This document shows positions 30,536 through 34,901 of a DNA stretch of 34,901 nucleotides, piece after piece (the first letter of the stretch is position 1; each line of letters opens with the position of its first letter). Origin of the DNA: Deltaproteobacteria bacterium (GTDB lineage Bacteria; Myxococcota; Myxococcia; Myxococcales; 40CM-4-68-19); the NCBI GenBank assembly GCA_025350525.1, contig JANXXR010000502.1, positions 1 through 34,901 on the forward strand, given 5' to 3'. The translations under genes were made by a program, and so were the position numbers. Below the pieces are notes generated by a model, which saw nothing but the letters and a program-made list of their open reading frames with translations, was not told where the DNA came from and made no database searches.

Positions 30536-30568
30536 ACGGCGCCGGTGGCGGGGATACGGTGCGCCCCC

Positions 30569-31564
30569 ATGGCCTTTCCCGCCGACCGACCTCGCCGCCT
30601 CCGCCGCACCGAGACCCTGCGCTCGCTGGTGCGCGAGACCGAGCTGCGGCCGCGCGACTTCATGCTTCCGCTCTTCGCCGTCTCGGGCAAGGGCGTGCGG
30701 CGGCCCATCGCCTCGATGCCCGGCTGCGCCCAGCTCTCGGTGGACCTGATCGTCGAGGAGGCGCGCGGCGCCTGGAAGTCCGGCGTCCGCTCGCTGATCC
30801 TCTTCGGCATTCCCGACCAGAAGGATGCGCAGGGCACCAGCGCCTGGGATCCCGACGGCCCGGTCTGCACCGCCTTCAAGGCGCTCAAGGACGCGCTGCC
30901 CGACCTGGTGCTGGTCGCCGACGTCTGCATGTGCGAGTACACCGATCACGGCCACTGCGGCCCGCTCGAGCGCGACGCCCGCGGACACGTGGCGGTGGCC
31001 AACGATCGCACGCTGCCGCTCTTGGCGAGGGCCGCCGTCGCCTATGCGCAGGCGGGGGCGGACATCGTCGCGCCCAGCGACATGATGGACGGCCGCGTCG
31101 CCGCCATCCGCAAGGGCCTCGACGAGCACGGGCTGAGCGAGACCGCGGTCCTGAGCTACGCGGTCAAGTACGCCAGCGGCTTCTACGGCCCGTTTCGCGA
31201 CGCCGCCCAGAGCACCCCCAAAGAGGGCGACCGGCGCGGCTACCAGATGGATCCCGGCAACGTGCGGGAGGCCCGCCGCGAAGCGCTGCTCGACGTGGAG
31301 GAGGGCGCCGACATGCTCATGGTCAAGCCGGCGCTCGCCTACCTCGACGTCATCGCCGAGGTGAAGCGCATCAGCAACCTGCCGATCGCGGCCTACAACG
31401 TCTCGGGCGAATACTCGATGCTCAAGGCGGCGGCGCAGCACGGCTGGATCGACGAGCGCCGGGTCTGCCTCGAGATCCTCACCGCCATCAAGCGCGCCGG
31501 CGCCGACCTCATCCTCACCTACAGCGCCGTCGACGCCGCGCGCTGGCTGCAAGATGTCGCTTGA
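30569..31564 (+). CDS. hemB: Delta-aminolevulinic acid dehydratase (porphobilinogen synthase)
   Basis: [32 protein letters not shown]...[17 protein letters not shown]...[22 protein letters not shown]...[20 protein letters not shown]...[37 protein letters not shown]. Confidence 0.97.
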
Positions 31565-31619
31565 AGAGGAGGAGCCGGCTTTGCCGGCGACGGGCCGCAG
31601 CCGAAGGGCGGAGGCAATC

Positions 31620-31817
31620 GTGTCCACCCGGTGGAAGATCGTCGAGACCAGCGCGGTCACCGACGATAATCTGGAGTCCATCCTCAACGAGTGGACCGGG
31701 CAAGGCTGGACCTTCGAGGGTATGCAGTTCGCCATGCGGGAGTCGTCGAAGCGCCCGGCCATGGCCTTCGTGCTCTTCACCCGCAGCGAGGAAGCGCAGG
31801 CCGATGACGTTGGATAA
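31620..31817 (+). CDS. Small DUF4177-like protein (start uncertain; ATG at 31554 possible)
   Basis: VSTRWKIVETSAVTDDNLESILNEWTGQGWTFEGMQFAMRESSKRPAMAFVLFTRSEE. Confidence 0.6.
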   Translation: MSTRWKIVETSAVTDDNLESILNEWTGQGWTFEGMQFAMRESSKRPAMAFVLFTRSEEAQADDVG

Positions 31818-32394
31818 CGCAGGGCCTCCCAGCCCGGGCTATCCGCCGGCGGACTTCCGCCGCCGCGCGGTGGCGCGCAGCCTCGACCTGGCCGTGGCCC
31901 TCGCGCCGCTCCTGCTGGTGCCCCGCGGACACCTGCGCGCGGGGCAGATCCTCTCGGCTGCGCTGCTCCTCTGCGGCGACTCGCTCTTCGGGCCCGGGCG
32001 CTCCCTGGGCAAGCGGCTCACCGGTCTTAGAGTGTTGGTGCTGGGCAGGCCGCGGCCCTGCGGCAACCGGCAGTCGATGGTCCGCAACGCCATCTTCGTG
32101 ACGGGCCTGTTGCCGGCCGCTGCCGGCGCGCCCCTGCCGCTGACCTTTGCCGCGCTCGCCTGCCTGGTGCTGCTGGAGGCCGGGGTGGCGCTGCGGCCGC
32201 TAACTCGCGATCTCGGCCAGCGCCGTCTGGGCGATCTCCTCGCCGGCACGCAGGTGATCGACGCCTCCATCGCCATCGGCCTGCCGCGAGCGCCGCCCGT
32301 CGAACCTCCTCGCGCGACGGCCCCGCTGGCCTCGCGCGCCGCACGAAAGTCTGTCCAGCCCGACAAGGAACCTCAAGCATGCGCCTGGCCCTGA
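31804..32394 (+). CDS. RDD-family membrane protein
   Basis: FRRRAVARSLDLAVALAPLLL...SLGKRLTGLRVLVLGRPRPCGNRQSMVRNAIF...RDLGQRRLGDLLAGTQVI. Confidence 0.75.
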   Translation: MTLDNAGPPSPGYPPADFRRRAVARSLDLAVALAPLLLVPRGHLRAGQILSAALLLCGDSLFGPGRSLGKRLTGLRVLVLGRPRPCGNRQSMVRNAIFVTGLLPAAAGAPLPLTFAALACLVLLEAGVALRPLTRDLGQRRLGDLLAGTQVIDASIAIGLPRAPPVEPPRATAPLASRAARKSVQPDKEPQACAWP

Positions 32395-34544
32395 CGCACA
32401 ACCTGCGCCTCACCGACTCCGAAGACGAGGCCGAGTTCGACAGCCGCGAGACCATCGACTCGCTCACCGCCGCCTTGGAGCGCCTCGGCCACCGCGTCGA
32501 GCGCATCGAGGTCTCCGGCCCCGCCAGCCGCACCGCCGCGCGCCTCGAAGCCTACGCGCCCGACCTCATCTTCAATACCGCCGAGGGCCGCCGCGGCCGC
32601 TTCCGCGAGGCCTTCTATCCGGCGCTCTTCGACGAGCTGGGCTTTCCCTATACCGGCTCCGACGCCTGGGTCTTGGCGGTCACGCTGGACAAGTCGCTCA
32701 CCAAGCTGGTGCTGCGCGAGCACGGCGTCATCTCGCCCAAGGGGCAGTTCATCGAGGAGCTGTCGGAATTGAAGCTCGACGGCTGGCGCTTCCCGGTCAT
32801 CGTCAAGCCCAACTTCGAAGGCTCGTCGAAGGGCATCAGCCAGGAGTCGGTGGTCGAGGACAAGGCGCGGCTGCGGGCGCTGGTGGAGAAGCAGCTCGCC
32901 AAGTTTCCCGCCGGCGTGCTCATCGAGGAATACATCCCCGGCAAGGACCTGACCGTCGCCTATCTGGAGAAGGCCAGCGCGGGCGTGCTCACCCCGGTCG
33001 AATATGTCTTCGACGAGGCCGAGCTGGCCAAGCGGCGGTATCGCATCTACGACTATGATTTGAAATCGGTCCATTTCAACGCCGTCAACGTGCGCTGCCC
33101 GGCGGAGTTTCCCGCCTATGTGCTGGAGCGCGCGCAGGAGCAGGCGCGGCGGGCCTACAAGGCGCTGGGCGTGCGCGACCTCGGACGCATCGACTTCCGC
33201 GTCGCCGAGGACGGGCAGGTGTATTTCATTGAAATCAATGCGCTGCCTTCATTGGAGCCGGGCGCGGGCATCTATGCCGCGGCGGCCTTGGAAGGCCTGC
33301 ATACCGACGGCGTCCTGGCCAAGGTGGTGGAGTCGGCGGTGGCCCGCTGGGGAATCAACGACCCGCGCAAGGCGCGCAACAAGCCGCCGCGCAAGACCGG
33401 CCCGCTACGGGTGGGCTTCACCTTCAACGTCAAGCGGGTCAAGCCGGCCCTCGACGGCACCCGCGACGAGGAGGCCGAGTACGATTCGCCCAAGACCATC
33501 CAGGCGGTGCGCGAGGCCATCGTGGCGGCCGGGCACGAGGTCATCGACCTGGAGGCGACGGCGGACCTGCCCTCGCTGATCGAGGCGATGAAGCCGGACC
33601 TGGTCTTCAACATGGCCGAGGGCATCAAGGGCCGCAATCGCGAATCGCAGGTTCCCGCTCTCTTGGAATTGCTCGATATCCCCTATAGCGGCTCGGATCC
33701 GGCGGCATTGAATATTGCATTGGACAAGGCACTGGCGAAGAAGATCGTGCGGCAGCACGGCATCCTCACGCCCAACTTCTTCACCCTGACCACCGGCAAG
33801 GAGCGGCTGCCCAAGGACCTGCGCTTCCCGGTCATCGTCAAGCCGGTGGCGGAGGGCAGCTCCAAAGGCGTGCACGCCACCAGCGTGGTCGAGAACGAGG
33901 CGGAGCTGCGCTCGGCGGCGCAGGCCATGATCGCCAAGTATGATCAGCCGGCCCTGGTCGAGGATTACATCGGCGGGCGCGAGTTCACGGTGGGAATGCT
34001 CGGGGAGCGCAGGCCCAAGGTGCTGCCGCCCATGGAAGTGGTCTTCCTCGACGCCAGCAAGAAGCGGCCGGTCTATTCGTTCGAGTTCAAGCAGGACTGG
34101 TCGTCGAAGATCCGCTACGACGTGCCGCCCGTCCTCGAGGCGGGACAACTCAAGGCGCTGGAGCGCGCCGCGCGCGAGTGCTTCATCGCGCTCGGCTGCC
34201 GCGACGTCGCCCGGGTGGATTTCCGCATGGACGAGCAGGGCAAGCTCTACTTCCTCGAGTGCAATCCGCTGCCGGGGCTGACGCCGGGCTGGAGCGACCT
34301 GGTGCTGATCGCGAAGGCGGCCGGCATCGACTACAACCCGCTCATCAGCGAGATCCTCTCCGGCGCCATCCGCCGTTACAAGGAGCGCGAGCGCGAGCGG
34401 CGCAGCGAGGCGCGGGCTCCGTCGGAGGCGCGCATCGCCGCGGAGACCAAGCCCGCCAACGGCTTCCACGCCGCCCAGCCTTCCAGCCCGCCGCCGATCG
34501 CGGAGGAGCCGCGCACCGCGCCGGCGGTTCCGCCCGTCATCTGA
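32379..34544 (+). CDS. Tandem two-domain D-Ala-D-Ala ligase-like ATP-grasp protein
   Basis: Two repeats: VIVKPNFEGSSKGISQESVV / VIVKPVAEGSSKGVHATSVV; LIEEYIPGKDLTVAYL / LVEDYIGGREFTVGML; GRIDFR..GQVYFIEINALPSLEPG / ARVDFR..GKLYFLECNPLPGLTPG. Confidence 0.93.
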   Translation: MRLALTHNLRLTDSEDEAEFDSRETIDSLTAALERLGHRVERIEVSGPASRTAARLEAYAPDLIFNTAEGRRGRFREAFYPALFDELGFPYTGSDAWVLAVTLDKSLTKLVLREHGVISPKGQFIEELSELKLDGWRFPVIVKPNFEGSSKGISQESVVEDKARLRALVEKQLAKFPAGVLIEEYIPGKDLTVAYLEKASAGVLTPVEYVFDEAELAKRRYRIYDYDLKSVHFNAVNVRCPAEFPAYVLERAQEQARRAYKALGVRDLGRIDFRVAEDGQVYFIEINALPSLEPGAGIYAAAALEGLHTDGVLAKVVESAVARWGINDPRKARNKPPRKTGPLRVGFTFNVKRVKPALDGTRDEEAEYDSPKTIQAVREAIVAAGHEVIDLEATADLPSLIEAMKPDLVFNMAEGIKGRNRESQVPALLELLDIPYSGSDPAALNIALDKALAKKIVRQHGILTPNFFTLTTGKERLPKDLRFPVIVKPVAEGSSKGVHATSVVENEAELRSAAQAMIAKYDQPALVEDYIGGREFTVGMLGERRPKVLPPMEVVFLDASKKRPVYSFEFKQDWSSKIRYDVPPVLEAGQLKALERAARECFIALGCRDVARVDFRMDEQGKLYFLECNPLPGLTPGWSDLVLIAKAAGIDYNPLISEILSGAIRRYKERERERRSEARAPSEARIAAETKPANGFHAAQPSSPPPIAEEPRTAPAVPPVI

Positions 34545-34611
34545 TCGGCATGCGCCGCATCGGCGCCCACCGCGAGTAGCCGCCTCCGGAAAAGCAGGCT
34601 AGACAAGAAGG

Positions 34612-34901
34612 GTGAAGCGGCCCGTCGAACGCACCCAGATCCACAACACCGAGAAGCGCTTCCGCGCCCGCGAGCTGGGCCTCCCGCTCGGGCGCTTCAA
34701 GCCTGGAAAGTGGAACGCCATCACCGACGTCGAGGGGGTGCTGGTCGGGCACTCGACCATCATCCGCGGCGCCGGTCCGCTCAGGCGCGGCAAGGGACCG
34801 ATCCGCACCGGCGTCACCTGCATCCTCCCCAACCAGCACAACATTTTCGAGCAGCGCGTCGTCGGCAGCGGCTTCGTCCTGAACGGCGCCGGCAAGGTGT
34901 C
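34612..34901 (+). CDS. P1-family peptidase (DmpA/L-aminopeptidase D-esterase-like), 5' part only
   Basis: GTG start, open to the window edge: VKRPVERTQIHNTEKRFRARELGLPLGRFKPGKWNAITDVEGVLVGHSTIIRGAGPLRRGKGPIRTGVTCILPNQHNIFEQRVVGSGFVLNGAGKV. Confidence 0.85.
   Translation, partial: MKRPVERTQIHNTEKRFRARELGLPLGRFKPGKWNAITDVEGVLVGHSTIIRGAGPLRRGKGPIRTGVTCILPNQHNIFEQRVVGSGFVLNGAGKV

Follow-up and report, generated by a model that had tools for sequence, protein, structure and literature searches.

What does a tandem ATP-grasp ligase do in a myxobacterium, and is the P1-family aminopeptidase encoded directly behind it part of the answer? The question arises at the end of the 34,901-nt window, by which we mean the whole stretch of DNA analysed here; it makes up the entire contig C216 of a parent genome of 5.27 Mb in 728 contigs. 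The first-pass annotation had read the two genes, together with an overlapping RDD-family membrane protein gene, as a candidate module that may make and trim a small peptide containing D-Ala or beta-amino acids, or edit envelope peptides, and had known of no named system to match it. In Myxococcus xanthus, MXAN_4097 carries tandem DDL domains and belongs to a five-gene cluster with sglS that is conserved in the Cystobacterineae, and insertions in MXAN_4098 or MXAN_4097 left S-motility, growth and morphology unchanged (Subedi and Wall 2022, PMC9108774).

Results

Layout of the locus and its published counterpart

All genes discussed here lie on the forward strand. Upstream of the pair are hemB, encoding porphobilinogen synthase (30545 to 31564; PF00490, E 2.5e-143; NF006762; synteny), and an SglS-like gene of 87 aa (31554 to 31817), both of which are additions to the earlier description. 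The latter occupies the sglS position by synteny (PMC9108774) and scores 79 bits on NF058545, far under the cut-off of 170, so that its orthologues may be left without a name in genomes that are not Myxococcus-like. The RDD-family membrane protein of about 196 aa, at the MXAN_4098 position (31804 to 32394), is assigned by synteny and by a PF06271 score of 25.1 bits that barely exceeds the Pfam cut-off of 24.1, and its reading frame shares 16 nt (32379 to 32394) with that of the 721-aa ligase, which begins with ATG (32379 to 34544). A gap of 67 nt (34545 to 34611), in which no terminator-like site was found on the forward strand, separates the ligase from the P1/S58 (DmpA-like) aminopeptidase gene with its GTG start (34612 to 34899). 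This layout agrees with the first-pass annotation down to the coordinates, as do the gene families, namely two ATP-grasp units (PF07478 twice) and a P1 aminopeptidase (PF03576, E 2.4e-15). It is more than chance, because other genera, and Archangium, show the same 16-nt RDD/ligase overlap and the succession of ligase and P1 is repeated across the phylum. Since the assembly contig ends within P1, just its first 96 aa are present (57 bits over PF03576 profile positions 1 to 52, compared with approximately 380 to 400 bits for complete orthologues), and statements on the catalytic half therefore rest on orthologues.

The hemB-sglS-RDD context places the ligase in the MXAN_4097 orthologue group, as the M. 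xanthus cluster shares with the window the order hemB-sglS-4098-4097, two tandem Ddl C-terminal domains and overlapping frames. Contrary to the expectation of a nameless system, the ligase is thus already published and even has a family name: in PMC5987646, "MXAN_4097-like amidoligase" denotes a "type 3" D-Ala-D-Ala ligase of lichen Nostoc, which bears the same family name by its authors' label. The downstream side differs from the published account, in that P1 directly follows the ligase in the window, whereas the main text on the M. xanthus cluster does not contain the word "peptidase" (PMC9108774).

The tandem ligase is probably a two-site amidoligase

Each half of the ligase is a complete ATP-grasp unit with changed acceptor residues (half 1, residues 1 to 332, 32379 to 33374; half 2, residues 343 to 689, 33405 to 34445), and identity between the two is 36%. 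Structure prediction gave high confidence inside each unit (mean pLDDT 88.5) and left the placement of the units relative to each other unfixed (pTM 0.53). Ddl was the top Foldseek match, with target-normalised TM values of 0.84 to 0.85. The large subunit of carbamoyl phosphate synthetase likewise has two ATP-grasp units per chain, but it matches the fold weakly (TM about 0.3, rmsd about 22), and the ligase units are Ddl-like in sequence.

Conservation was counted over 46 aligned sequences for each half, with Ddl positions mapped by sequence alignment and established Ddl residue roles, without superposition. Equivalents of Ddl E15, K97, K144, E180, E187, K215, D257 and N272 were found in 46/46 rows of both halves, the E187 equivalent being D in half 1, and those of R255 and E270 in at least 44 of the 46 rows of both. 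Thus aligned, the ATP, Mg and catalytic residues are retained in each half. Around the acceptor, the position of Y216 is mostly occupied by T/S/N in half 1 and by Q/L in half 2, Glu replaces H63, the S281 equivalent is mostly A in half 1 and retained as S in half 2, and the G276 equivalent is lost in half 1. Because the catalytic residues are kept and the acceptor-pocket residues are changed, the tandem protein is, as judged from these alignments, probably a two-site amidoligase and not a Ddl. The likeness to Ddl lies in the fold and the catalytic residues; the differences lie in the two units per chain, the altered Y216, H63 and half-1 S281 equivalents, and the presence of a separate Ddl in the genome.

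Profile scores can mislead on this point. The NCBIfam Ddl model gives 144 and 191 bits to the two halves and 330 bits to the whole protein as the two-domain sum, and the ligase passes the cut-off only because these scores add. The other Ddl of the same genome reaches just 215 bits on that model, below the cut-off, which therefore does not discriminate. The probable housekeeping Ddl gene of this genome (L002:1107-2168, reverse strand) adjoins genes recognised by eye as XerC-like, HslV-like and HslU-like.

The linked P1 enzymes form one clade

The ligase-linked P1s (50 sequences) form a single clade with a support of 0.99, and unlinked P1 paralogues are 28 to 51% identical to the reference. Linked orthologues carry a Gly-Ser self-cleavage and nucleophile site within YGSII, a region that lies past the contig end in the window copy; Gly-Ser is the self-cleavage site of the P1 family (PMC9570944). 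The nearest solved structure to the P1 orthologues is the D-aminopeptidase of P. horikoshii (2drh), ahead of BapA (3n2w) and DmpA (1b65), and complete orthologues share near full-length similarity and the Gly-Ser site with these P1/S58 enzymes. Unlike them, the window-type P1 is genetically tied to a ligase. Neither a signal peptide nor an N-terminal membrane segment was found in the linked P1s inspected, the copy on contig C143 excepted, and both enzymes should therefore be cytoplasmic. From their residues, both enzyme types look catalytically intact.

The C143 copy is a second, nearly complete P1 gene of the same genome (L128:1-1377, G000:C143). Towards the C-terminus and in the downstream DNA it matches the linked P1 locus of sister genomes; its N-terminus resembles a signal peptide, and it is identical to the window fragment (34612 to 34899) at 40 of 56 positions in part of the overlap. 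The final residues of the window fragment depart from the consensus (GAGKV for GAGEV). The two may be tandem copies or the product of mis-assembly at the contig break.

Ligase and P1 occur together across Myxococcota

The ligase and P1 were nearly always jointly present or jointly absent in the 60 relatives compared; named relatives in the collection comprise Deltaproteobacteria/Myxococcales MAGs, Anaeromyxobacter and Archangium. Across 195 Myxococcota genomes, ligase orthologues occur in 133; both genes were found in 129 genomes, the ligase only in 4 (G003, G079, G119 and G032, with completeness of 61 to 86%), some P1 only in 8 and neither in 54. The corresponding Fisher p of 2e-34 ignores the relatedness of the genomes and is not to be taken at face value, and co-absence is partly non-independent because one deletion or assembly gap removes adjacent genes together. 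Outside the host's order, all ligase-bearing genomes (8/8) also have P1, and 5 genomes have some P1 without a ligase. One genome (G017) is counted among those with both genes although its single P1 is distant and divergent (28% identical, 3.6e-46) and is not the orthologous partner, and another (G116) has a linked-type P1 and no detected ligase, the contig stopping 3.3 kb upstream of this P1.

Gene order is more uniform still. In a count compiled by hand, with the nearest P1 taken where several are present, P1 lies downstream on the same strand as the ligase in 107/107 genomes with coordinates for both genes on one contig. The distance is up to approximately 1 kb in 65 genomes, 1.2 to 6 kb in 24, 6 to 30 kb in 8 and 30 to 142 kb in 10. 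A candidate P1 start and the ligase stop share 4 nt in ten loci spread over several lineages (L032, L050, L120, L121, L122, L123, L125, L127, L134 and L135). In Myxococcaceae, P1 lies as far as 142 kb from the ligase, so co-transcription is not required. The genes that separate the two are unrelated and often on the opposite strand in the four loci examined, and the arrangement thus looks like an ancestral pair of neighbours that slowly separated in Myxococcaceae and was kept tight elsewhere.

Linkage of hemB, sglS and RDD to the ligase is restricted to the host's order; near the ligase-P1 pairs of deeper lineages, none of the three was found, which makes the pair the conserved unit, more widely conserved than the published M. 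xanthus cluster. The neighbourhood survey that the first-pass annotation had called for therefore bears out a conserved neighbourhood across Myxococcota. It also trims the proposed module: co-occurrence, order, 4-nt overlaps and the single P1 clade leave a functional link between ligase and P1 well supported, and RDD, linked within the order only, drops out of the core. HemB, SglS and RDD were all ruled out as core members, as they were not found beside the ligase in deeper lineages. A general third gene downstream of P1 was likewise rejected, as the neighbours vary by group (DUF72, a GGDEF protein, an AI-2E transporter, a mechanosensitive channel and others), and a phage origin was ruled out with no PHROG matches.

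Related pairings beyond the tandem ligase

Outside Myxococcota, matches to the ligase in genome contigs were all single-domain, as were the three rhizobial plasmid matches examined, one of them beside a CapA gene (L138:5893-8975 on pNGR234a, 38% identical to the second half). In two genomes, a single-domain Ddl-like ligase adjoins a gene for a Peptidase_Mx zinc metallopeptidase (L150:1733-3968, reverse strand; L151:2970-5041, forward strand); these peptidases are 68% identical to each other and unrelated to P1. In a third (L152:3082-6264, forward strand), the relative is followed by a transglutaminase-core protein. Ligase plus peptidase may be a theme of this enzyme group, which we regard as a lead. 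The survey of Iyer et al. (2009, Mol Biosyst) is said to describe such pairing as a recurring theme in the group. In the literature examined, which does not include that survey, the partnership with P1 seems to have no earlier report.

Discussion

We propose that ligase and P1 form a two-gene module that Myxococcota have inherited vertically. Each ligase half would activate a small amino acid by phosphorylating its carboxylate and condense it with an amine. With a different acceptor for each half, the product would be a short non-ribosomal peptide or an acceptor modified twice. P1 would be a cytoplasmic, self-cleaving Ntn aminopeptidase and take the N-terminal residue off this peptide or one closely related to it, and would thereby set the peptide level or recover building blocks. 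We give the whole account, a bifunctional amidoligase with a P1 acting on the same or a closely related peptide, an even chance of being correct; the make/break mechanism is plausible, and ligation by both halves, a shared substrate and the direction of control are what we infer. Counting against a paired function are the genome that keeps the ligase without an orthologous P1 partner (G017), the one that keeps P1 without a detected ligase (G116), and the MXAN_4097 insertion, which was silent in the phenotypes tested (PMC9108774).

The same linkage would be expected if the two enzymes performed consecutive steps of salvage, with P1 acting ahead of the ligase: it would release small D- or beta-amino acids from peptides that were imported or set free inside the cell, and the ligase would build them into another product. 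The P1 family consists of aminopeptidases, the nearest solved one is named a D-aminopeptidase, and myxobacteria are soil predators with peptide-rich diets. Since the conserved order puts the ligase first and linkage to a transporter or amino-acid gene is not general, we consider salvage unlikely.

Cell-wall editing, in which the ligase, of the "type 3" D-Ala-D-Ala kind, would supply peptidoglycan precursors with an alternative D-amino-acid dipeptide while P1 recycled peptides of the wall, draws on the Ddl fold and catalytic residues and is the reading given for the lichen Nostoc relative in PMC5987646. It appears distinctly doubtful, as the genome carries a separate Ddl, acceptor residues are changed in both halves and the neighbourhood has no wall gene other than the ligase. 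Moreover, cells with the MXAN_4097 insertion showed no defect in growth or shape (PMC9108774), which speaks against an important role in the envelope under laboratory conditions.

A tagging cycle comparable to tyrosination or pupylation, in which a protein or cofactor receives one or two amino acids from the ligase and loses them again to P1, would fit the pairing of ligase relatives with unrelated peptidases and the weak similarity of the ligase to the tubulin-tyrosine-ligase profile in a profile search; with free amino acids as the normal substrates of Ddl-type pockets and neither a small tag nor an acceptor protein encoded by a conserved gene nearby, it is very unlikely. That the genes are neighbours through inheritance only, as their distance in some genomes and the partnerless ligase of G017 might suggest, is highly improbable given that adjacency persists where all other neighbours changed, that 4-nt overlaps arose in several lineages and that ligase and P1 are jointly present and absent.

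The make/break account, in its most far-reaching form, would be a phylum-wide, undescribed peptide cycle in which a specific short non-ribosomal peptide, with D- or beta-amino acids perhaps among its residues, is assembled by a two-site ligase, serves as a cytoplasmic signal or store and is dismantled by a dedicated Ntn aminopeptidase; we hold this extension to be improbable as it stands. Automatic annotation would label the ligase a cell-wall Ddl as two weak domain scores sum, and the acceptor-site changes argue for a product other than that of Ddl. The P1 partner supplies a concrete hypothesis for the MXAN_4097-type ligase, namely that P1 cleaves its product. Should that product be a new small peptide shared by most myxobacteria, a well-studied social bacterium would prove to make a new metabolite.
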